Shown here: positions 1 through 14,382 of the stretch, piece by piece
Layout of the letters: each line of letters begins with the position of its first letter
Numbering within the stretch: the stretch's first letter is position 1
From: Embleya hyalina
GTDB lineage: Bacteria > Actinomycetota > Actinomycetes > Streptomycetales > Streptomycetaceae
DNA length: 64,000 nucleotides
Reading direction: 5' to 3'
NCBI RefSeq assembly: GCF_003967355.1
Contig: NZ_BIFH01000014.1
Coordinates: 1 to 64,000 of the forward strand
Made by a program: the position numbers and the translations under genes
Notes under the pieces: model-generated
Told to the model about the DNA's origin: nothing
What the model saw: only the letters and a program-made list of their open reading frames with translations
Database searches by the model: none

Positions 1-370
1 CCCCGAGTCCCGCACGCCGGCGGCGGCCCACCCCACAAGCCGGGCCGGCCTCGGACCGGCCGGCCGCAACCACACGCGCAACGTCCGCCGGGGACAGTCG
101 AGTCACCCGGAAGGTCACTCAGGAGCCGGACCCGTTGTTTCGTTCCGTGCCCAGGCTCGGGGTGGTGTCGGGGTGGGCCGGGCGTTCTGGGGCGCCAGGT
201 TCTGTGCCCTGCGGGTGCGGTGTGTCGGGTGGTTCGGGGTGGCGGGCCGGGTTGGCTTGGCCGAGGCTGTGGAAGCCGAGCCTTCGCGCCGGACGGGACG
301 GGTGGGCGGGCCTGCCTACACCCCGCCCGGCTCGGGGTGCCCGGCGGGGCCATGTGGTCGTGAGCACGGC
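1..370. other. left-edge region without a confident gene
   Basis: No reading frame here has convincing protein character. The open frames that cross it on both strands are repetitive Arg/Gly/Pro translations typical of non-coding high-GC DNA. Bases 130-360 are G/T-rich on the plus strand. The promoter of the PTH2-like gene presumably lies near the right end, but I see no clear -35/-10 pair. A gene could end to the left of base 1. Confidence 0.4.
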
Positions 371-1045
371 ATGATCGGAGCCGTGAGTTCCATCGAATAC
401 GTCCTCCCCCTCGTCGCCCACATCGAGAAGGACGAGCCCCCGGCCCGTACCGACGCCCTCGAGGCCGCCGCGCGGGCGGTTCTCGTTCTGCTTGCCGATG
501 CCCGTTCCGCCGACCCCGAAGGGGACTGGTACGAGGTCGTCGAGGCATGGCAGGGGCATCGCATCCGCAAGGTGGTGCGCCGGGCTCGCGGTGGTGAGTG
601 GCGTCGTGCCGGTGCCCTGCCCGGGATCACCGTGACCCACCGCACCGCCGAGGTCCGGGTGTATCCGCCGATTCCGTTGGACGGATGGCCCAAGGATCTG
701 GCCAGGTTGCAGGTCTCCGGCACCGACCTGGACGAGCCGGTCGCGCCGCCCGCCGCCGATCCCGGGCAGCCGGTGCTGTGGTTGAACCCGTCCCTGGAGA
801 TGACCGCCGGCAAGGCCATGGCGCAGGTCGGGCACGGCGCGCACATCGCCTGGATGGGGCTCGGTCCGGGCGCGCGGAAGGAGTGGGCGGCGCGCGACTT
901 CGACCTCGCGGTTCGGGTCGCCGACCCCGCCGCGTGGCCCGCGCTCACCGGCGGCGCCCGGCCCGTGGTTCGCGACGCGGGCTTCACCGAGATCGCGCCG
1001 GGGTCGTGCACCGTGGTCGCCGACGTACCGTGGCCGACCCGCTGA
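371..1045 (+). CDS. PTH2-like peptidyl-tRNA hydrolase domain protein
   Basis: Product is 224 aa. The C-terminal half (about residues 130-220) resembles the peptidyl-tRNA hydrolase 2 fold: a strand ending in LWLNPSLEMTAGKAMAQVGHG, where Lys in GKAMAQVGHG corresponds to the conserved GK.AAQ.aHa segment of PTH2, and later a strand TVVADVPWP. PTH2 enzymes release peptides from stalled peptidyl-tRNA in the cytoplasm. The N-terminal half (VLPLVAHIEKDEPP onward) is a poorly characterised extension seen in actinobacterial members. The start at ATG 371 is chosen because the upstream in-frame sequence is low-complexity; GTG 383 is an alternative. The enzymatic role is inferred from the fold only. Confidence 0.75.
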   Translation: MIGAVSSIEYVLPLVAHIEKDEPPARTDALEAAARAVLVLLADARSADPEGDWYEVVEAWQGHRIRKVVRRARGGEWRRAGALPGITVTHRTAEVRVYPPIPLDGWPKDLARLQVSGTDLDEPVAPPAADPGQPVLWLNPSLEMTAGKAMAQVGHGAHIAWMGLGPGARKEWAARDFDLAVRVADPAAWPALTGGARPVVRDAGFTEIAPGSCTVVADVPWPTR

Positions 1046-1391: not shown

Positions 1392-1772
1392 GTGACTCTT
1401 CAGGTGATCAAGGACGATCTCCAGGGCTGGACCGTGCTGCACGTCCTCGGGGAGGTCGACTACGCCGTCGTCCCCGAGCTCCGCGAGCACGTCAGACGCG
1501 CGGTCGCCGACGGCGATCATCGGATCGTCCTCGAACTCACCCGGGTCGAATTCCTCGATTCCACCGGCATCGGCACCCTCGTCGCGGCCCGCCGACTGCT
1601 CCGCTCCACCGGCGGCTCGCTGCGTCTGGTGATGCCCGGCAACAACGACCACCACGTCAACCGGGTCTTCACCGCGCTGGGCCTGCGTCGCCTCTTCGAC
1701 GTACACCCCGACCTCACCGAGGCCCTGTCCGACGACACCCCCACGGACGAGGACCTGAGCGCCGCCGGCTGA
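1392..1772 (+). CDS. STAS-domain anti-sigma factor antagonist
   Basis: A 126-aa single STAS domain of the SpoIIAA/RsbV/BldG family. In this family the unphosphorylated protein binds an anti-sigma kinase and frees a sigma factor; phosphorylation on a conserved Ser reverses this. The phospho-acceptor motif DSTGIG is present with Ser57, preceded by the typical strand VLHVLGEVDYAVVPEL. GTG 1392 is used because GAGGGG lies upstream and the STAS fold begins at once. It converges on the B12-protein/PP2C pair, whose phosphatase is a plausible partner. No anti-sigma kinase gene is present in the window. Confidence 0.9.
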   Translation: MTLQVIKDDLQGWTVLHVLGEVDYAVVPELREHVRRAVADGDHRIVLELTRVEFLDSTGIGTLVAARRLLRSTGGSLRLVMPGNNDHHVNRVFTALGLRRLFDVHPDLTEALSDDTPTDEDLSAAG

Positions 1773-1811
1773 CCGGGTGCCGGGGGGACACCGAGGCGGC
1801 TCCGGCCCGCC

Positions 1812-2807
1812 CTACAACACCGCGCCCGCAGCCGTCAGCGTGGCGCCCGCGCCGGGGACGTGGGTCAGGCGCGTGGCGAAGGCCCGATAGGCGGCGGCCA
1901 GTGCCTCGCTGGGGACGCGCCGGTGGCCCAGCACGTCGGCGAACCACCGGGTGAAATCGACGAACAGCGCGTCGTCGTCCAGGAACAGCGAGACGGCGAG
2001 CGTATCGACGGCACTGGCCAGGCCGTCGCGCATGGTGGTGTCCGAGCGTTCGCCCTCGATCGGGGCCAGCGCCGACATGCCCGCGGCGACCAGCGGGGTG
2101 CGCAGCAGGCCGACGCCGTCGTGGGTCGGGTCGGGCAGGTGGCGCAGGCGCGGAGCCGGGGTGGTGACGGTCGGCCAGTCGGGGTCGGTCAGCATCTCGG
2201 CGGCGCGTTCGGCGTCCGGCGCCCAGCCGTTCGCGCCGACGACGCCCGCCCAGCGGCCGTTCGGGCCGAAGCCCGGACCGCCGACCAGGACCGGCACCCC
2301 GACCCGGCGGGCCACCTCCACCATCGCCCGCGCGCCCGGCAGCGCGGTGGAGACCGTACAGCTCAGCACCACCGACCCAGCGCCCGAGTCGGGTACCACT
2401 CGGGCCAGTTCGCCCGCGCCCGTACCCGGTGGCAACACCGTCGTGTCGATGCCGCGCAGCCGCAACAGCGCGGCCAGGATCCGGGACGCGAGCCCGTGCC
2501 AGTCGCCCTGCGCGCAACACACCACGATCCGGGTCTGCGAACGCGGGCGCGGCGTCGTGTCCGCGACCAAGTGCACCACTCGCCCGCTGACGTGCGAGGC
2601 GGCGTGCTCGCGCGCCACCGTCCACTCGCCCGTGGCCCACCGCTCGCCCACCACGCGCAGCGCCGGGATGACCAGGTCGGTCAACACCTCCTCGCCCGGT
2701 ACCCCCCTGCCCAGCAGATTGCGGGCCAGGTTCAGTGCCTCGACCTCGTCGGCTCGGCCCAAGTGTGCGAGGAACAGGTCGAGTTCGTCGGAGACCACGT
2801 GCGTCAT
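1812..2807 (-). CDS. stand-alone B12-binding photoreceptor-like protein
   Basis: 331 aa with no MerR DNA-binding domain. Residues 5-80 form a helical B12 cap domain and contain W57-x9-E67-H68, the W-x9-EH signature of adenosylcobalamin photoreceptors of the CarH/LitR type. Residues 92-205 form the Rossmann B12-binding domain with D102-W-H104 (lower-ligand His of the DxHxxG motif; the usual Gly is Ala), Ser149 in LSCTVS and the GG of VGGPGFG. About 120 further residues carry FVDFTRWFADVLGHR, a helical segment of unknown function. ATG 2807 overlaps the stop of the upstream phosphatase gene (ATGA), so the two are translationally coupled. Inferred role: a light- or cobalamin-state sensor acting on the phosphatase or STAS partners. 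Cofactor binding is not proven. Confidence 0.8.
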   Translation of the reverse strand: MTHVVSDELDLFLAHLGRADEVEALNLARNLLGRGVPGEEVLTDLVIPALRVVGERWATGEWTVAREHAASHVSGRVVHLVADTTPRPRSQTRIVVCCAQGDWHGLASRILAALLRLRGIDTTVLPPGTGAGELARVVPDSGAGSVVLSCTVSTALPGARAMVEVARRVGVPVLVGGPGFGPNGRWAGVVGANGWAPDAERAAEMLTDPDWPTVTTPAPRLRHLPDPTHDGVGLLRTPLVAAGMSALAPIEGERSDTTMRDGLASAVDTLAVSLFLDDDALFVDFTRWFADVLGHRRVPSEALAAAYRAFATRLTHVPGAGATLTAAGAVL

Positions 2808-4534
2808 GCGCCGTCCGGATGCTCGTCGGGACCGGGACCACCGAGCTCGGCCAGGATCGGCAACGCCTCGTGGTCGTCCCGATAGGGGATGTGAATGGCC
2901 AACAGCACCACGTCGTCGATCACCGGGGCGTCGCCCAGATGCTCGAGCAGCCGCTGTTCCAGGCGCTCCACCAACGCCTCCACCGGCATGCCCGCGCACG
3001 AGGCCAGGTCGTGCCGCAACGCCTCCACCCCGTACGCCTCACCGTCCGCGTCCCGCGCCTCGGTGACCCCGTCGCTGTACAGGAGCAGGGTCGACCCGGC
3101 GGGCAACGGCAGTTCCCGCTCGCCGAACACGGTGCCCGGGATACCCGCCACCAGCGGATCCGTGAACGCCATCGCGGTCACCCGACCCGCCGGGTCCATC
3201 CACAGCGGCGGCGGATGCCCGGCGCAGGTCAGCCGGACCCGCGCGGAGCCGTCCGGATGCACCGAGCAGTCCCCGGTGATCGCGGTCAGCACCAACGAGG
3301 GATCGCCGAGGGTGAGTTCCGCGTCGAGCAGCGCCATCCGACGCGCGGGAGCGCAGCCCGCGCTCGCCGCCGTGCGCAGTATCAGCAGCGAGCGCGAGCT
3401 GAACATGCCCACGGGCGTGCCGCGTCCGCACACGTCGCCGACGGAGAACGCCCACGTGCCGTCGACCGGGGTGGGATGCACGGCGTAGAAGTCGCCGCCC
3501 AGACCGTTGGTCAACGACACCGGCCGATACCGGGCGGCGATCCGCGCGCCGGGCACCTCGGGCAGCGGGCCCGGGACGAGTGCCCGGGCGAGCAGCAGGG
3601 TGCGCCGATCCTGTTCGACGTACAGCCGCGAGGTGCGCAGTGCCACGCCCACCCGTTCGGCGTAGTCCACCGCGAGTGCGATCTCCTCCTCGGCGAACGG
3701 TTCCGAGGTCGCCGAGCGCACGAACGTCAGTACGGACGGCGCGTCGTCATCGGTGGGCACCGGGACCACGAGCGCACATCGCGCGTCGACGGCGAGCAGG
3801 TCCGCGACCGCCTCGTCCGGGACCAGCCGGCCGAGCAGTTCGCGATCCATCAGCGGGTGCAGCTCCTGCCGGCGGGTGCGCAACACCCGGCCGACGCCCG
3901 CCGGGGCCGTCCACGCCGTGCCCAGGCCGGTGGTCACCCGGGCGATCGGGGTGCCGGTCGCGGGCGCGTAGGTGGTGCGCATCCGGCCGTCCTCCATGCT
4001 CGGCACGGACAACGCGACCCAGTCGGCCAGTTCGGGCGAGGGCAGCGTGGTGACCAGATCGGTCAGCCGGCGCGGGTGGGTGGTCGCGGACAACATCCGG
4101 CCCGCCTCGGCGAGGAAGACCTTGCGCCGCCGCTCGGCCAACAGCGCGTCCTCGCGCCGCCGTTCGGCGGTGGTGTCGCGGACGTACCAGGCGTAGTGGC
4201 CGTCGCTCAGCACCGCCCGGCGCCCGTGCACGCGACGATCGTCGACCTCGCCCCGCCAGGTGGTCCCGGTCGCGGGCAGGGTCGGGAAGGCGGTGCCCAC
4301 GACACAGTCGGGCAACACCCGCCCGGCCGCGGGGTTGACGTGGCACACGGTGCCTTCGGGGGTGAACACGATCACGCCGGTGTCGCTCTCGTCGAGCACC
4401 TCGGCCGGCGACCAGCCGGGCGGCCCCGTTTCGTCGGGGGCGTGCGGCGGCTCGAAGCCGTCGCTCAGCCGAGAGGCGGCCGGCTTCTGCGTGTTGCTGC
4501 CCCGCTCGTCGCTCGAGGGGCGTGGTCCGGTCAT
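2804..4534 (-). CDS. PAS-GAF-PP2C (SpoIIE/RsbU-type) phosphatase
   Basis: 576 aa. A PAS domain (about 45-125, VLDESDTGVIVFTPEG) is followed by a GAF domain (about 145-300) and a C-terminal PP2C/SpoIIE domain (about 320-560). Metal-binding acidic motifs are visible: GLGGDFYAV, FSVGDVCGRG, LLLYSDGVTEARD and IDDVVLLAI. Such phosphatases dephosphorylate STAS antagonists and so activate sigma factors. No HATPase kinase domain is fused, unlike many streptomycete relatives. Start ATG 4534 has AAGGGA upstream; an in-frame GTG at 4600 would add 22 residues. The stop overlaps the B12-protein start by ATGA. Likely substrates are the STAS proteins at 1392 and 4814 (inference from neighbourhood). Confidence 0.9.
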   Translation of the reverse strand: MTGPRPSSDERGSNTQKPAASRLSDGFEPPHAPDETGPPGWSPAEVLDESDTGVIVFTPEGTVCHVNPAAGRVLPDCVVGTAFPTLPATGTTWRGEVDDRRVHGRRAVLSDGHYAWYVRDTTAERRREDALLAERRRKVFLAEAGRMLSATTHPRRLTDLVTTLPSPELADWVALSVPSMEDGRMRTTYAPATGTPIARVTTGLGTAWTAPAGVGRVLRTRRQELHPLMDRELLGRLVPDEAVADLLAVDARCALVVPVPTDDDAPSVLTFVRSATSEPFAEEEIALAVDYAERVGVALRTSRLYVEQDRRTLLLARALVPGPLPEVPGARIAARYRPVSLTNGLGGDFYAVHPTPVDGTWAFSVGDVCGRGTPVGMFSSRSLLILRTAASAGCAPARRMALLDAELTLGDPSLVLTAITGDCSVHPDGSARVRLTCAGHPPPLWMDPAGRVTAMAFTDPLVAGIPGTVFGERELPLPAGSTLLLYSDGVTEARDADGEAYGVEALRHDLASCAGMPVEALVERLEQRLLEHLGDAPVIDDVVLLAIHIPYRDDHEALPILAELGGPGPDEHPDGA

Positions 4535-4813
4535 GGCTACGGAATCCCTTGCGTCCGTGCGTTTCGAGCCGGCTCGCACCGGCGCTCGCGCAACCTTCAC
4601 GGTACGACCGCCGGGGCCGGCCGCGGGTGGCTTCCGACGGAATCACACCTATAGGGGAAGACGGTCCACGAGCGACCGATACGGCGAGTAGGGTGCCGAT
4701 GCGGTCTTGCGTTCCGGGATGACTGTGGGGGTTCGTCCCGGGACGCGCGCATCGTAGCGAGCGGTCGCGCGCCGCGCGACCGAACCGACACTCGACCGGG
4801 TGGAGTGGTCCAC

Positions 4814-5203
4814 ATGAACCTTGACGATCTCCCGCCGGACGACGTGGATCACACATCGTTCTCGGCCAGACCGTGCGTGGTGCGCACGGCCCTGGAAGCC
4901 GACCTCGGCGGCGTCGTGTCCGTGCACGGTGACATGGACATGACCGCGGCACCGGCCTTCCGCCAGGCGGTGGACCGCCTCGTCGACGAGGGCGCGCGCA
5001 GCCTGCGGATCGACCTGTCCGGGGTGCCGTTCATCGACTCGTCCGGCCTGGGCAGCCTGGTCTACGGCTACCGCCGACTGCGCGACCGGGACGGGAACAT
5101 CGTGGTGTGCGGTGTCGGCCCGCAGCCGGCGCGGGTGTTGCGAATCACCCACTTGGACCGGATCCTCAGCGTGGAACCGGCGGGTGTCCTCCGGAACCGG
5201 TGA
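4814..5203 (+). CDS. STAS-domain anti-sigma factor antagonist
   Basis: 129-aa STAS protein, divergent from the PP2C phosphatase gene. The core begins around residue 32 (GGVVSVHGDMDM) and carries the phospho-acceptor motif FIDSSGLG at residues 73-80, with Ser76 as probable site. The N-terminal 30 residues are an acidic extension. ATG 4814 is preferred over GTG 4805 because the GTG lies inside the GGAG ribosome-binding site. Its sequence differs clearly from the STAS protein at 1392, so the phosphatase may serve two different partner-switch branches. Confidence 0.9.
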   Translation: MNLDDLPPDDVDHTSFSARPCVVRTALEADLGGVVSVHGDMDMTAAPAFRQAVDRLVDEGARSLRIDLSGVPFIDSSGLGSLVYGYRRLRDRDGNIVVCGVGPQPARVLRITHLDRILSVEPAGVLRNR

Positions 5204-5451: not shown

Positions 5452-6639
5452 TCACCGGCCCAGGCCGGCCTCCAGTTCACTCGCCGTACGACTGCGGATC
5501 AGGTCGTTGATCGCCTCGCCCGGTCCGACCTGCTCGAACAGCGTCGGCGGCCGGAAGGTGACGTACATCGTGCGCCGCCCGCCCACCCCGGCGGGCGGCG
5601 GCGACGCGTGCAGTACGTCGGCCACGTGCACCGTCACGTCGCCCGGCTCGGTGGGCACCGCGACATAGGGCAGGTTCGCCGGTTCCTCCCGCGTCGGTTG
5701 CGGGCAGGTGCGCCCGTGCGAGCCGGGGATCGCCTCCAGGTAGCCGGTCTCGGCGCAGGAACCGGTGAGTTGGATGCCGATCGCCACCGACGGGCACATG
5801 ATGTGGTGGCCGCCGAGACCGCAGTCGGTGTGCCACGGGATGTTGGCGAGGCCCTTGAGCCGACCGGCCGGCTTGAGCAGGACGGAGACCCCCTCCATGC
5901 GGTCCATGGACGCGGCCAGGTCGTCGTGCAGCAGGCCGGCCAGTCGGACCAGGCGTGGATCGCGGGCCAACTCGTCGATCGGCGCGGAACGTTCGCTCGC
6001 GTACACGATCCGGCACAGCACCGCCTCACCCGACTCGGTCTCCGCCCACCAGGACCGGTCGTCGTCCGGCCGGGCCTCGGCGGCGAGCCGGTCCACCTCC
6101 GCGTTCAGGGCGGCGATCTCGGCGGCGGAGAACACTCCGCGCACCCGCATCACCCCGGTCGCCTCGAAGTGTTCGGCGAGTTCCCGATCGGAGTGGTCGA
6201 GGGTGAGTTCGGCCGCCGGGTCCACCCGCGCGCCGTGCCGGTCGTACAGCTCCGGCCCCTGCGGCAGGTAGATTTCGATGCCCTGATAGAGCGCCCGCAA
6301 CGCCGGTTCCCAGCGGAACAGGTCCAGCACCGTGCCCTGTTCGGTGTGCACGTCGCCCGCGATGGCCAGCGCCGCGGCGGTGCGCAGCAGGGTGACCAGG
6401 TCGGTCCAGGCGTCGGGGGACAACCGCACCACGCAGCCGGCGTCCGGGTCGATCCCCTCCACCACGCGAAGTCGGGAACCCTCCGCGCGATAGGTCCAGG
6501 CGCCGGTGCCGATCCGCAGGCCGAGCGGGTCGAGTCCGGCGAGGCCCGCCTCGGCCCGTTTGCCGTGCGTGCCGATGAGCAATCCGGGGACGATGTCCCG
6601 GTGGTACGTTTCCGCGTCGATCCGGTCGTGCCCGAGCAT
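5452..6639 (-). CDS. phytanoyl-CoA dioxygenase (PhyH)-family oxygenase
   Basis: 395 aa. Residues about 155-395 form a PhyH-type Fe(II)/2-oxoglutarate dioxygenase: the iron ligands H270-T-D272 (IPWHTDCG) and distal H344 (DVLHASPP) and a candidate 2-oxoglutarate Arg near 356 are present. The first 150 residues are an additional alpha/beta segment (YRAEGSRLRVVEG...LALRALY-like) that might be a sterol-carrier/SCP2-like domain; this is uncertain. ATG 6639 has AGGAGG nine bases upstream. Monocistronic, with an inverted repeat about 50 bases upstream. The substrate is unknown. Confidence 0.85.
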   Translation of the reverse strand: MLGHDRIDAETYHRDIVPGLLIGTHGKRAEAGLAGLDPLGLRIGTGAWTYRAEGSRLRVVEGIDPDAGCVVRLSPDAWTDLVTLLRTAAALAIAGDVHTEQGTVLDLFRWEPALRALYQGIEIYLPQGPELYDRHGARVDPAAELTLDHSDRELAEHFEATGVMRVRGVFSAAEIAALNAEVDRLAAEARPDDDRSWWAETESGEAVLCRIVYASERSAPIDELARDPRLVRLAGLLHDDLAASMDRMEGVSVLLKPAGRLKGLANIPWHTDCGLGGHHIMCPSVAIGIQLTGSCAETGYLEAIPGSHGRTCPQPTREEPANLPYVAVPTEPGDVTVHVADVLHASPPPAGVGGRRTMYVTFRPPTLFEQVGPGEAINDLIRSRTASELEAGLGR

Positions 6640-6801: not shown

Positions 6802-6847
6802 TGACGGATCGTCAGCTGCGTGCCCCGGATCGTTGACGGTTCGTCAG
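6802..6847. repeat. two copies of a TGACG-n3-CGTCA palindrome
   Basis: TGACG-GAT-CGTCA at 6802-6814 and TGACG-GTT-CGTCA at 6834-6846, 32 bases apart and followed by G in both. The second copy overlaps the stop codon of the GntR gene. Spacing of about three helical turns suggests a tandem operator for the downstream dioxygenase, although a terminator role for gntR is possible. Confidence 0.4.
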
Positions 6848-7587
6848 TTCTCCGGGGAGGGCGCGTCTTCGCGGACCCGGGACACCTGCGGATAGGCGCG
6901 GCGCAGATGCGCGGCCACCGCGTCGGCCGCGGCGCGCGGATCGCGAGCCACGATCGCGGCCAGGATGGCCCGGTGATCCGCGCGCAACGCGCCCGTGTCC
7001 GGCCCCAGTTCGGCCACCGCGCGGCGCTGGTGTCGGCGTACGGTGTCGCGCAGCGCGCGCATGAACGTGGTCACCAGCGCGTTTCCCGACAACTCCGCGA
7101 TCGTGGTGTGGAACTCGGTGTCCAGTTCGTTGAACCGGTCCGGGGACAGGTCCGGATCGTCCATCGCGGCCACGATCGCGTGCAGCCGGTCGAGGTCGGC
7201 CTCGCCCGCGTGCCGTGCCGCGCCCTCGACCGCCCACGACTCGATCAGCAGCCGGGTCTCGACCACGTCGTCCACGGCGAAGTTGGCCAGCCCCAGGTGC
7301 AGCCCGAGTACGCCGGTCAGCGCCGGGCCCGCCGAACCGGCCAGGATCGCCCCCGCCTCCGGGCCGCTGCCCGGGTTGGCCACCAGCACGCCCATGGCCT
7401 CCAGGACCCGCATCGCCTCGCGCACCGAGGGGCGCCCGACCCCGAGTGCGGCGGCCAACGCGCGCTCGCCCGGGAGCTTGTCGCCGGCCCGCAGTCGGCC
7501 GCTCGCGATCTGCTCCTCGATCTGCGCCACGACCTCCTCGAACGCGCGTACACGTTTGACCGGACGCCAGTCGGGGCCGTCTGTCAC
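6844..7587 (-). CDS. FadR-subfamily GntR regulator of lactate utilisation
   Basis: 247 aa. The winged HTH spans about residues 10-75 (LPGERALAAALGVGRPSVREAMRVLEAMG), followed by the all-helical FCD ligand domain (about 90-230) with the acidic/His metal-binding pattern (ETRLLIE, DTEFHTTIA, DHRAILAAI). GTG 7587 follows GAGGAG at good spacing; a longer in-frame extension has no protein character. It is divergent from lutABC and a palindrome of FadR type lies between them, so it is the likely LldR/LutR-type repressor of that operon, probably responding to lactate (inference from family and context). Confidence 0.88.
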   Translation of the reverse strand: MTDGPDWRPVKRVRAFEEVVAQIEEQIASGRLRAGDKLPGERALAAALGVGRPSVREAMRVLEAMGVLVANPGSGPEAGAILAGSAGPALTGVLGLHLGLANFAVDDVVETRLLIESWAVEGAARHAGEADLDRLHAIVAAMDDPDLSPDRFNELDTEFHTTIAELSGNALVTTFMRALRDTVRRHQRRAVAELGPDTGALRADHRAILAAIVARDPRAAADAVAAHLRRAYPQVSRVREDAPSPEN

Positions 7588-7678
7588 GGGGGCTCCTCGG
7601 ATCCGGGCGTCGCGAAATCGCGAATCGGGGGTGTCTTGTGGCCAAGCATGCCATGCCCTTAGCGTGAGCACACCACAG

Positions 7679-7693
7679 TGTGGTCCGACCACA
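7679..7693. promoter_or_regulatory. GntR/FadR-type operator of the lut operon
   Basis: TGTGGTC-C-GACCACA, a perfect 7+1+7 palindrome that contains the FadR-family core TGGT-n3-ACCA. A further half-site ACCACA at 7672-7677 gives an extended ACCACA/TGTGGT/ACCACA arrangement. It lies in the gntR-lutA divergent gap, 31 bases before the lutA start. Confidence 0.7.
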
Positions 7694-7723
7694 TGATTCG
7701 ACAGTCGCGAGGAGGCCGCACGC

Positions 7724-8455
7724 ATGCGCGTCGGACTGTTCATCACCTGCGTCAACGACACGCTCTACCCCCGCACGGGGCAGGCCGTCGTCCGCCTCCT
7801 GGAACGGCTCGGCTGCACCGTGGACTTCCCCACCGCGCAGACGTGCTGTGGCCAGATGCACTGGAACACCGGCTACGGAAAGCGGATCGAGCCGATGGTG
7901 GCCGGGTTCGCGGACACCTTCGCGGGCTACGACGCGGTGGTCACCCCGTCCGGGTCCTGCGGCGCGATGATCCGGGACAACCACCCGCGCGCCGCCGCAC
8001 GGGCGGCGGATCCGGGGTTGTCGGCCCGGGTCGCGGCGGTGGTTCCGAAGGTGTACGACCTCACCGAGTTCATCGTGGACGTGCTCGGCGTCACGGATGT
8101 CGGCGCCTACTTCCCGCACCGGGTCGTCTACCACCCCACCTGCCACTCCCGCCGGCTCCTGGGTCTGGGCGACCGGCCGACCGCGCTGCTTCGCGAGGTG
8201 CGGGGCCTGGAACTGGTCGACCTGCCGGGGGAGGAGGAGTGTTGCGGCTTCGGCGGCACCTTCGCGGTGAAGAACCCGGACGTCTCCACCGCGATGGGCG
8301 CCGACAAGGTGCGGCACGCGGCCGGCACGGGGGCGGAGGTGCTGTGCGCGGCGGACAACTCGTGCCTGATGCACATCGGTGGGCTGATGGATCGTCAGCG
8401 GACCGGCATGCGCGTCGTGCACTTGGCGGAGATCCTCGCCTCGACGGCGGGTTAG
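7724..8455 (+). CDS. lutA: L-lactate utilisation protein LutA (CCG-domain Fe-S protein)
   Basis: 243 aa, usual LutA/LldE length. It carries two cysteine-rich CCG domains: TCCGQMHWNTGY with upstream Cys10, and CHSRR...EECCGFGGTFAVK, the ligands expected for Fe-S centres as in heterodisulfide reductase-like subunits. With LutB and LutC it forms the cytoplasmic complex that oxidises L-lactate to pyruvate. ATG 7724 follows GAGGAGG closely. First gene of an operon with lutB (132 bases downstream) and lutC. Confidence 0.93.
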   Translation: MRVGLFITCVNDTLYPRTGQAVVRLLERLGCTVDFPTAQTCCGQMHWNTGYGKRIEPMVAGFADTFAGYDAVVTPSGSCGAMIRDNHPRAAARAADPGLSARVAAVVPKVYDLTEFIVDVLGVTDVGAYFPHRVVYHPTCHSRRLLGLGDRPTALLREVRGLELVDLPGEEECCGFGGTFAVKNPDVSTAMGADKVRHAAGTGAEVLCAADNSCLMHIGGLMDRQRTGMRVVHLAEILASTAG

Positions 8456-12193: not shown

Positions 12194-12871
12194 ATGGCAC
12201 AGGTGCTCGTTGTCGAGGACGACCAATTCGTACGTTCGGCGCTGATCCGCTACCTCACCTCGTCCTCCCACGCGGTGCGCAGCGTGGGCACCGCCCTGGA
12301 GGCGCTGCGCGAGGTGGCCCAGTACTCGTTCGACGTGGTCATCCTGGACCTCGGCCTGCCGGATCTGGACGGATCCGAGGCATTGAAGATGTTGCGCGGC
12401 ATATCCGACGTCCCGGTGATCATCGCGACCGCCCGGGACGACGAGGCGGAGGTGGTCCGGCTGCTCAACGCCGGCGCCGACGACTATGTGACGAAGCCGT
12501 TCTCCGGGGAGCACCTGGGTGCCCGGTTGTCGGCCGTGCTGCGCCGCGCGCGCGGCGGCAGCACACCCGAGGTGTTCACCACCGGCGGGCTGCGGATCGA
12601 CACCCGGCGCCGTGAGGCGCACCTGGACGGCCGCGAACTGGAGTTGACCCGACGCGAGTTCGACCTGTTGGCGTTCCTGGCCGCGCGGGCCGGCCGGGTG
12701 GTGCCGCGGCGGGAGATCCTGGCCGAGGTGTGGGGTCAGGCGTACGGGGACGACCAGACCATCGACGTGCACCTGTCGTGGTTGCGCCGCAAGCTCGGCG
12801 AGAAGGCGCGGGAGCCGAGATATCTGCATACCGTGCGGGGCGTCGGGGTGAAGCTGGAGCCCCCGGCGTGA
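12194..12871 (+). CDS. OmpR/PhoB-family response regulator
   Basis: 225 aa. Receiver domain (1-118) with acidic pocket ED at 8-9, phospho-acceptor D52 (VVILDLGLPDLDG) and K in YVTKPF; C-terminal winged HTH (about 128-222) with the transactivation-loop pattern LTRREFDLLAFLA and recognition helix TIDVHLSWLRRKL. It should be phosphorylated by the kinase encoded immediately downstream, whose GTG overlaps its stop (GTGA). A 33-base-period repeat sits just upstream of the start. Confidence 0.95.
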   Translation: MAQVLVVEDDQFVRSALIRYLTSSSHAVRSVGTALEALREVAQYSFDVVILDLGLPDLDGSEALKMLRGISDVPVIIATARDDEAEVVRLLNAGADDYVTKPFSGEHLGARLSAVLRRARGGSTPEVFTTGGLRIDTRRREAHLDGRELELTRREFDLLAFLAARAGRVVPRREILAEVWGQAYGDDQTIDVHLSWLRRKLGEKAREPRYLHTVRGVGVKLEPPA

Positions 12872-14382
12872 GACTGCGCTCGGGCGGGCGCGGGGCGACG
12901 GGGCGGCGCGGGGAGGGCCGGTCCGGTGGTCGGGCGGCGGGTGCGGCCGAGCGGGCCGATGGGTCCGCCCGGGTCCCGAGGTCGGCCGGCCCGAGGCCGG
13001 CCCGGGCGCCGAGGGGGCTGCGGGGCACGCTCGTCCGGGTCTCGTTGGCGGTGACCACGATGGTGGCGCTGGCGTTCCTGATCCCGCTGGTCCTGGTGAT
13101 CCGGGAGATCGCCGCGGACCGGACCTTCACCGATGCCGAGCGGCAGGCCGCCGCGTTGCAGCCGGCGCTGGTGATCACCACCGAACGGGCCGCGCTGGAG
13201 CCGGCGATCGCGAGTGTGCCGGCCGGATCGGGCGGGCGGATCGCGATCCACCTGCCCGACGGGTCGGTGCTCGGGCGGCCGCGCGCGAGCGAGCACAACG
13301 TGGCGGGCGCGCGCGAGTCGGCCCGCTCGTTCCGGGTCCGGGCGGGCGGCGGCTGGGCGCTGTTGCAGCCGGTGGTGCTGGACCAGGGGCGGATCACGGT
13401 GATCGAGGTGTACGTCCCGGACGGCGATCTCGACCACGGCGTGGGCACCGCGTGGCTGGTGCTGACCGGGGTGGCGGTGGTGCTGGTCGGCGGTTCGGTC
13501 CTGGTCGCCGACCGGCTCGGCGCGCAGGTGGTGCGCTCGGCCCGGGCGCTGGCCGCCGCCGCGCGTTCGCTGGGTACGGGCGACCTGGAGGCGCGGATCG
13601 CCCCGCAGGGCCCCTCCGAACTCCAGGAGGCCGCCACGTCGTTCAACACGATGGCCGATCGGGTCGAGCAACTGCTGGCCAACGAGCGGGAGATGGCCGC
13701 CGACCTGTCGCATCGGCTGCGCACCCCGCTGACCGCGCTGCGGCTGAACGCGGCGGCGCTCGGGGACGATCCGGTGGCCGAGCAGACCCGGGACGCGGTG
13801 GCGCGGCTGGAGCGCGAGGTGGACGAGTTGATCCGCGGCGCGCGGCGGTCCAGCGCGAGCATCGAGCGGGTGGGCTGCGACGCGGCGGAGGTGGTGCGGG
13901 CCCGGATGGACTTCTGGTCCGCGCTGGCCGAGGACGAGGATCGCCCGTGGCAGCTGGTGGGCGCGGAGGTGCCGGTACGGGTCCCGGTGTCCCGGGGCGA
14001 CCTGGCCGCCGGTCTGGACGCGATGTTGGGCAACGTGTTCCGGCACACCGAGGAGGGGGTGCCGTTCTCGGTCACCCTGCACGCGGGCCGGGAATCGGTG
14101 ATCCTGCTCGTCGCCGACGGCGGCCCCGGCATCGCCGATCCGGAGACCGCGCTGCGGCGTGGGCACGGCCAGGGCGGCGACGGCTCGACCGGCCTGGGTC
14201 TGGACATCGTGCGCCGGCTCGCGGAGGCCACCGGGGGAGAGGTCGACCTGGGTCGATCGGTGCTCGGCGGCGCGGAGGTGAGCGTACGCCTGGGCGCGGG
14301 CCGTACGGACGCGGTCACCCGGCGCAGTCGTCGGGCCGGCAAGAGTCGGCGCGGACGGCGCCGGCCGGTGTCGGCCGAGTGA
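12868..14382 (+). CDS. sensor histidine kinase
   Basis: 504 aa. A basic, low-complexity 50-residue N-terminus leads to a first membrane helix (VSLAVTTMVALAFLIPLVLVI), an extracytoplasmic sensor loop (about 75-190), a second helix (WLVLTGVAVVLVGGSVLV), HAMP (about 215-270), HisKA with DLSHRLRTPL (His282) and an HATPase domain (N-box MLGNVFRHTEEG, G1 DGGPGI, G2 GSTGLGLDIVRRL). It overlaps the response-regulator stop by GTGA, so the pair is co-translated. The stimulus is unknown. The unusually long basic N-terminus could indicate an internal start. Confidence 0.93.
   Translation: MRLRSGGRGATGRRGEGRSGGRAAGAAERADGSARVPRSAGPRPARAPRGLRGTLVRVSLAVTTMVALAFLIPLVLVIREIAADRTFTDAERQAAALQPALVITTERAALEPAIASVPAGSGGRIAIHLPDGSVLGRPRASEHNVAGARESARSFRVRAGGGWALLQPVVLDQGRITVIEVYVPDGDLDHGVGTAWLVLTGVAVVLVGGSVLVADRLGAQVVRSARALAAAARSLGTGDLEARIAPQGPSELQEAATSFNTMADRVEQLLANEREMAADLSHRLRTPLTALRLNAAALGDDPVAEQTRDAVARLEREVDELIRGARRSSASIERVGCDAAEVVRARMDFWSALAEDEDRPWQLVGAEVPVRVPVSRGDLAAGLDAMLGNVFRHTEEGVPFSVTLHAGRESVILLVADGGPGIADPETALRRGHGQGGDGSTGLGLDIVRRLAEATGGEVDLGRSVLGGAEVSVRLGAGRTDAVTRRSRRAGKSRRGRRRPVSAE

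Follow-up and report, generated by a model that had tools for sequence, protein, structure and literature searches.

Two overlapping genes of Embleya hyalina probably encode a light sensor of the photocobilin family and a SpoIIE-type phosphatase dedicated to it, a pair that would switch a STAS/sigma-factor output. They lie in a 64,000-nt stretch of DNA (the window) belonging to a 12.05-Mb assembly of 78 contigs. The sequence gives the family, the predicted fold, the key residues, the pairing of the genes and the purifying selection; adenosylcobalamin (AdoCbl) photolysis, and a photocobilin protein acting on an enzyme separate from it, are known from other members.

This kind of module has already been described for a Saccharothrix photocobilin, as a predicted interaction: Zhang et al. 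2024 (PMC10979010) report a gene-neighbourhood analysis and name STAS, SpoIIE and PP2C proteins as potential interaction partners of SasPcob. The breadth of the SpoIIE pairing may already be contained in the supplement of that paper. In the passages searched, STAS/SpoIIE partners are named in PMC10979010 only, and not in PMC11796333, PMC10151467, PMC9861118, PMC9416670 or PMC11418112; B12 receptors are not mentioned in those of the papers on light in mycobacteria and Rhodococcus.

A photocobilin-type protein encoded with a SpoIIE-type phosphatase

Coordinates of the module are collected in Table 1. Pfam recognized two domains in the 331-aa protein, B12-binding_2 (residues 12-76, E 7e-11) and B12-binding (residues 93-202, E 1.5e-12), with no MerR domain (E <= 0.1) and no match for the C-terminal ~120 residues. 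The best PDB sequence match was SasPcob of Saccharothrix syringae (8j2w/8j2x; E 2e-57, residues 12-315), and AbPcob (8j2y) was also matched (E 2e-42). With the AlphaFold model (mean pLDDT 88, built from 21 sequences), the Foldseek top five were photocobilin chains (TM 0.85-0.86 over 327-330 columns; 37-38% identity with SasPcob), CarH structures ranking after them and covering about 200 columns. Among the matches listed, the nearest named relative is Embleya scabrispora, whose B12 protein shares 83% identity with that of the window. Because the photocobilin matches span nearly the whole protein, the C-terminal ~120 residues are identified, from sequence and model, as the photoglobin domain, which binds biliverdin in SasPcob. 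The predicted domain order is the one that defines a photocobilin: a B12 domain, made of a helical bundle and a Rossmann fold, and then a photoglobin domain. The initial annotation had proposed an unexplained phosphatase-contact domain here; the PDB search, the AlphaFold/Foldseek comparison and PMC10979010 replace it with the biliverdin domain, and an unknown domain was likewise rejected on the sequence and structure matches to photocobilins. The globin domain may still touch the phosphatase.

Table 1. Features of the module and of a second module of the same genome (nucleotide positions; the first thirteen rows refer to the window)
Feature	Position	Strand	Basis or remark
331-aa protein of photocobilin type (helical bundle, then B12 Rossmann fold, then photoglobin domain at the C-terminus)	1812..2807	-	Pfam, PDB sequence search, AlphaFold, Foldseek
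Four-helix bundle, residues 6-83; W57 at 2637-2639, E67-H68 at 2604-2609	2559..2792	-	
B12 Rossmann fold, residues 93-207; presumed cobalt-ligand His104 at 2496-2498	2187..2531	-	
PPGTG, residues 126-130 (GxxxP column)	2418..2432	-	alignment of 118 rows
Photoglobin (biliverdin) domain, residues 228-328; Gly262 at 2022-2024; W288 kept	1824..2126	-	
PAS-GAF-PP2C (SpoIIE-type) phosphatase	2804..4600	-	598 aa from GTG; 576 aa from possible ATG at 4534
PAS-like fold of phosphatase, residues 65-142	4175..4408	-	model topology; Pfam PAS_8 in relatives
GAF-like fold of phosphatase, residues 176-296	3713..4075	-	model, relatives' Pfam, PDB profile match
Long linker helix of phosphatase, residues 304-341, GAF to catalytic domain	3578..3691	-	model
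PP2C catalytic domain, residues 353-570	2891..3544	-	model and alignment
ATGA overlap: phosphatase stop TGA / photocobilin start ATG	2804..2807	-	
STAS (anti-sigma-antagonist-like) protein, DSTG motif (window)	1392..1772	+	convergent with pair; Pfam E 1.4e-18
STAS protein, DSSG motif (window)	4805..5203	+	divergent from pair; Pfam E 1.2e-20
SpoIIE-photocobilin-STAS, one strand, canonical order	G000 contig 25, 155548-158461		locus L177

We compared the protein with its characterized relatives. It resembles CarH/LitR in the B12 domain, the W-x9-EH motif and the lower-ligand His, and residues 19-182 match NCBIfam CarH; it differs in its score of 65.9 bits, below the 400-bit cut-off, and in having neither a MerR DNA-binding domain nor a His beside W57. 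Membership in CarH was rejected on the score and the missing MerR domain. With SasPcob it shares the standalone form, the domain order, a similar length and the conserved W/E/H/H, and differs by Gly262 in place of Asp270, by PPGTG in place of GxxxP and by STAS genes lying on the opposite strand. AbDPcob/AbPcob (8j2y) shares the fold and has a bilin Asp that is replaced there too (by His), but it is fused to a diguanylate cyclase, whereas the window photocobilin is encoded beside a phosphatase instead.

In the phosphatase, the SpoIIE domain was recognized by Pfam (E 3e-36), which found neither PAS nor GAF in the window protein itself; of 36 relatives, 18 gave a match to GAF and 7 a match to PAS_8 (E <= 0.01). 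The model predicts the order PAS-like fold, helix, GAF-like fold, long helix and PP2C domain, with low confidence at residues 1-58 and 576-598. Searched with the phosphatase-family profile, the GAF region (minus strand) matches DevS GAF domains in PDB (E 1.4e-7). The Foldseek best match is an RsbU domain (3ke6), followed by SiaA and SpoIIE, and D370, D389, D510, D562 and D563, taken as the metal ligands, are invariant in 36 aligned sequences. The protein is therefore classed, by its PP2C fold and metal-binding Asp residues, as a SpoIIE/RsbU (PPM) type phosphatase with predicted activity.

The main elements of the initial annotation thus stood. It had proposed a B12 photoreceptor domain of CarH type that lacks MerR and shares its locus with a PP2C phosphatase gene; W57-x9-E67-H68 and H104 are all in place in the 331-aa protein, the ATGA overlap was located, and the PAS-GAF-PP2C architecture was recovered, SpoIIE by Pfam and PAS/GAF from the relatives' Pfam matches and the AlphaFold topology. 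The STAS proteins that it had placed on both sides have clear domains; as a correction, both genes lie on the strand opposite to the pair, so by strand neither belongs to its transcript. DSTG and DSSG occupy the usual phospho-serine site of STAS proteins, so that each of the two would combine a STAS domain with a putative phosphorylatable serine. The other neighbours are ordinary: a PTH2-like protein (173-1045, plus strand), a PhyH-type dioxygenase (5452-6639, minus), a GntR/FCD regulator (6844-7761, minus) and a CCG-domain protein (7724-8455, plus).

Conserved B12 contacts and altered positions in the window's clade

Residues were examined in an alignment of 118 rows (the best 80 of at least 518 relatives, 37 further sequences and the window protein, with four repeats), the SasPcob PDB chain being brought to the numbering of the paper through conserved residues (chain index + 6). 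W61, E71, H72 and H108 of SasPcob correspond to W57, E67, H68 and H104 of the window protein. These four and G54 are invariant in 118/118 rows, 80 of which are the best of at least 518 relatives; homologues without W-x9-EH or the B12 His, which the initial annotation had named as counting against it, were not seen. AdoCbl photolysis is the switch in CarH and in photocobilins, W-x9-EH surrounding the adenosyl group, according to PMC10979010. The neighbour of W57 is Ala and not the equivalent of TtCarH His132, the cobalt ligand in the light state; SasPcob carries Gln at this position and is still photoactive.

GxxxP, GxxW, EH and GxxH form the signature of light-responsive B12 domains in PMC11796333. 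Three of these elements are present (G54..W57, E67-H68 and G101..H104). GxxxP was not found in the window's clade, which reads PPGTG (PxxxG) at this place; it is kept in 108 of the 118 rows (including the best 80 of at least 518 relatives), and four rows beyond the clade also lack its Pro.

The second departure concerns biliverdin. The key contact Asp270 of SasPcob is replaced by Gly262, and Trp296 is retained as W288. The column was assigned with a gap just before it, the stretch from Gly262 to W288 being ungapped against SasPcob; across the 118 rows (80 of them the best of at least 518) it reads D in 100, G in 12 and other residues in 6. Gly is also found outside the window's clade, at L047, L061, L072, L073 and L086 (Micromonospora) and at L059 (Actinomadura). 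AbPcob has His there in the PDB alignment, in agreement with PMC10979010, which classes AbPcob as a photocobilin despite weak biliverdin binding and no bilin Asp. Strong biliverdin binding has thus probably been lost in the window copy, and little or no red-light response is predicted for it. On a quick tree of 114 non-redundant photocobilin rows, with long branches, the state of this Asp requires at least 6 changes. Judged by sequence, the window module is a variant of the SasPcob-type sensor and partner, lacking the bilin Asp and GxxxP. We found no cobalamin-binding, spectral or phosphatase assay for this clade in the literature.

These departures bear on a different use of the same cofactor, in which the protein would sense the AdoCbl level or the cobalamin oxidation state, not light, and would report B12 status to the phosphatase. 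Such sensing would need only the B12-contact residues, and these are what the clade keeps while lacking GxxxP and the bilin Asp. Against it, W-x9-EH, placed round the adenosyl group that is photolysed, is invariant in all rows (80 of 118 being the best of at least 518), and the nearest solved relatives are light sensors. We consider this reading unlikely, though it is the strongest of the alternatives.

The genome holds a second module on contig 25, whose photocobilin keeps both the bilin Asp and GxxxP. A further SpoIIE gene lies ~2 kb on, and a Sigma70_r2 match at 163420-163614. Heme oxygenase has one match in the genome and could be the source of biliverdin.

With a canonical module at hand, the window copy might be a duplicate in decay whose sensor is dead, and the contig 25 module the working one. 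The clade's long stem (1.65 changes per column), the loss of GxxxP and bilin Asp, STAS genes out of their canonical place, and the canonical order, Asp and GxxxP of the second module would all suit this reading. Substitution rates speak against it: photocobilin dN was 0.016, 0.100 and 0.211 against dS of 0.122, 0.426 and 0.594 (G002, G001 and G003), and phosphatase dN 0.014 and 0.072 against dS of 0.093 and 0.382 (two relatives). The resulting dN/dS, about 0.13-0.36 for the photocobilin (three relatives) and 0.15-0.19 for the phosphatase (two), is well below 1 for both genes and points to purifying selection on the pair across relatives. The metal Asp residues of the phosphatase are moreover intact, and the clade is present in the three same-genus genomes searched. 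Decay is accordingly improbable in our judgement. In G002 and G001 (L161, L162) the whole block around the module aligns as DNA, so the conserved STAS neighbours there say little; in G003 (L163/L031) only the flank aligns as DNA and the module is found at protein level.

Pairing with the phosphatase across relatives

We then return to the favoured reading, a light sensor with a dedicated phosphatase, and to the co-encoding of B12 proteins with SpoIIE/PP2C elsewhere, which the initial annotation had proposed to look for. It was found: in 79 of 80 loci a same-strand SpoIIE domain lies upstream of the photocobilin match and ends at most 266 nt from it. These loci are the best 80 of at least 518 confirmed places, a set therefore biased towards the window protein, class membership being taken from record titles. 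The exception, L037, lies on a contig with only 216 nt before the photocobilin match. The SpoIIE profile was built from matches in the 80 loci themselves; plain phmmer with the window's SpoIIE domain detected SpoIIE in 76 of these 80 best-scoring loci. Start and stop codons overlap in 57 of 79 cases (31 ATGA, 24 GTGA and 2 TTGA) within the same best 80 of at least 518. With 40 SpoIIE matches spread evenly over 12.05 Mb, one would end <= 500 bp upstream on the same strand by chance with a probability of ~0.0008 per locus.

A less biased check was made in a phylum sample of 296 genomes. It gave 22 nearly full-length photocobilin places, reaching profile position 305 or beyond, the remaining matches ending at 229 or before. 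SpoIIE was present upstream in 12/12 places of the window's class (the genome's own two included) and in 0/10 full-length photocobilins outside it. Among 61 genomes near and far, 19 of 21 places had an upstream SpoIIE; L170 and L176, both inside the class, have none directly upstream. In total, 101 of 114 non-redundant photocobilins have an upstream same-strand SpoIIE, or 101/104 when the ten outside the class are set aside, both counts including the best 80 of at least 518 and the window's own row, entered by hand from the window gene data. Pairing is thus not a property of all photocobilins, as the ten outside the class and L170 and L176 illustrate. At L170 (G019 contig 47), the two neighbouring SpoIIE genes have the opposite orientation. 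The outside-class loci L151-L160 have no SpoIIE and, one distant match excepted (L155), no STAS match in the fetched stretch.

The linked phosphatases also tend to group together. Among its 26 other matches in its own genome, the window phosphatase is nearest to that of the second photocobilin module (141.9 bits; next 113.6). On a tree of SpoIIE domains, 160 in all, one change separates the 100 linked from the 60 unlinked (32 of the latter from the window's genome), compared with 48.6 in shuffles; the branch parting them has a support of 36, and many long branches were flagged.

No third neighbour is fixed in the 80 loci (best of at least 518). After photocobilin (80) and SpoIIE (79), the largest same-strand cluster covers 20 loci and is represented by a downstream STAS (L065); other same-strand clusters reach at most 18/80. 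Opposite-strand clusters (the largest of 77 loci) are presumed to be antisense shadows of these genes. Pfam named four of ten chosen cluster representatives (MarR, Exo_endo_phos, Usp and ROK) and returned nothing for six. A corrinoid carrier protein of a methyltransferase, instead of a sensor, is highly improbable and was rejected: the NCBIfam matches to corrinoid methyltransferase proteins that suggest it (E 8e-5 to 9e-4 for four of them, 0.04 for a fifth) are far below cut-off, Pfam names no methyltransferase in the module's three other genes and four nearby genes, W-x9-EH and the globin domain are characteristic of photocobilins, and the phosphatase is a constant partner in the loci above (79/80, best 80 of at least 518).

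STAS context and proposed light-dependent partner switching

At the chosen threshold, which makes the counts lower bounds, a STAS gene directly follows the photocobilin on the same strand within 700 nt in at least 56 of 114 rows and lies within 700 nt downstream on the opposite strand in at least 3 of 114, these rows including the best 80 of at least 518. Of 66 aligned STAS rows, in which a gene may be repeated, 62 have Ser at the phosphorylation position. SpoIIE-photocobilin-STAS triads occur in Mycobacterium/Mycolicibacterium-titled genomes (L055, L067, L075, L085, L089, L095, L105 and L109). Twelve of the 80 relatives (best 80 of at least 518) carry a kinase-like gene no more than 4 kb away, for example in the order STAS-kinase-SpoIIE-photocobilin at L090 and SpoIIE-kinase-STAS-SpoIIE-photocobilin-STAS at L079 (Saccharothrix yanglingensis).

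The window resembles RsbU/SpoIIE-STAS partner-switching systems in its SpoIIE-type phosphatase with intact metal Asp residues and in the STAS phospho-serine motif, and differs from them in that no anti-sigma-type kinase or sigma factor was found within its 64 kb: the only kinase-profile match is a histidine kinase of two-component type (12616-14379), and the 89 Sigma70_r2 matches of the genome all fall outside the window. HATPase_c_2 has 85 matches in the whole genome. The closest other genome match of both window STAS proteins adjoins the best of these, on contig 23, a layout presumably like that of Streptomyces bldG. The STAS protein of the second module was absent from both searches with the window STAS proteins (10 matches each, E <= 0.001).

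We propose the following scheme for the window copy. In the dark, a photocobilin dimer would hold AdoCbl between the helical bundle and the Rossmann fold, with W57 and E67-H68 around the adenosyl group and H104 under the cobalt. Light, mainly green, would break the Co-C bond, and the altered photocobilin would engage the PAS-GAF-linker region of its co-encoded phosphatase differently, so that phosphatase activity would rise or fall. The phosphatase would then dephosphorylate on its conserved serine a STAS protein, either local, distant and RsbV/BldG-like, or both, and a sigma factor or other partner would be freed by partner switching. STAS dephosphorylation and sigma control would thus be the output; AdoCbl binding, light response, phosphatase contact, sign of the effect, STAS substrate and sigma output are all what we infer for this copy.

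PMC10979010 offers a precedent: photocobilins impose light-dependent changes of activity on a separate diguanylate cyclase, and AdoCbl-only SasPcob acts on such a cyclase in the opposite direction to the biliverdin-loaded form, being an activator in the dark. As SasPcob without biliverdin acted oppositely, the sign of the effect may be inverted in the window copy. More tentatively, the genome might possess two channels, contig 25 reading red and green and the window module green or the AdoCbl state only, for a comparison of wavelengths, or of light and B12, within partner switching; this extension is rather doubtful.

What standalone photocobilins do is described as less clear in PMC10979010. 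Because a SpoIIE-type gene is near-constant and often overlapping across the class, it names their likely client enzyme; and because the bilin Asp needs at least 6 changes, spectral retuning would, on the two-channel reading, be recurrent in a mostly phosphatase-linked family. The window's clade, without the bilin Asp and GxxxP, would provide a natural test separating light-sensing parts from those serving partner control only. If true, the proposed scheme would represent an actinobacterial light input into stress or developmental signalling, unlike the direct repressors CarH/LitR.
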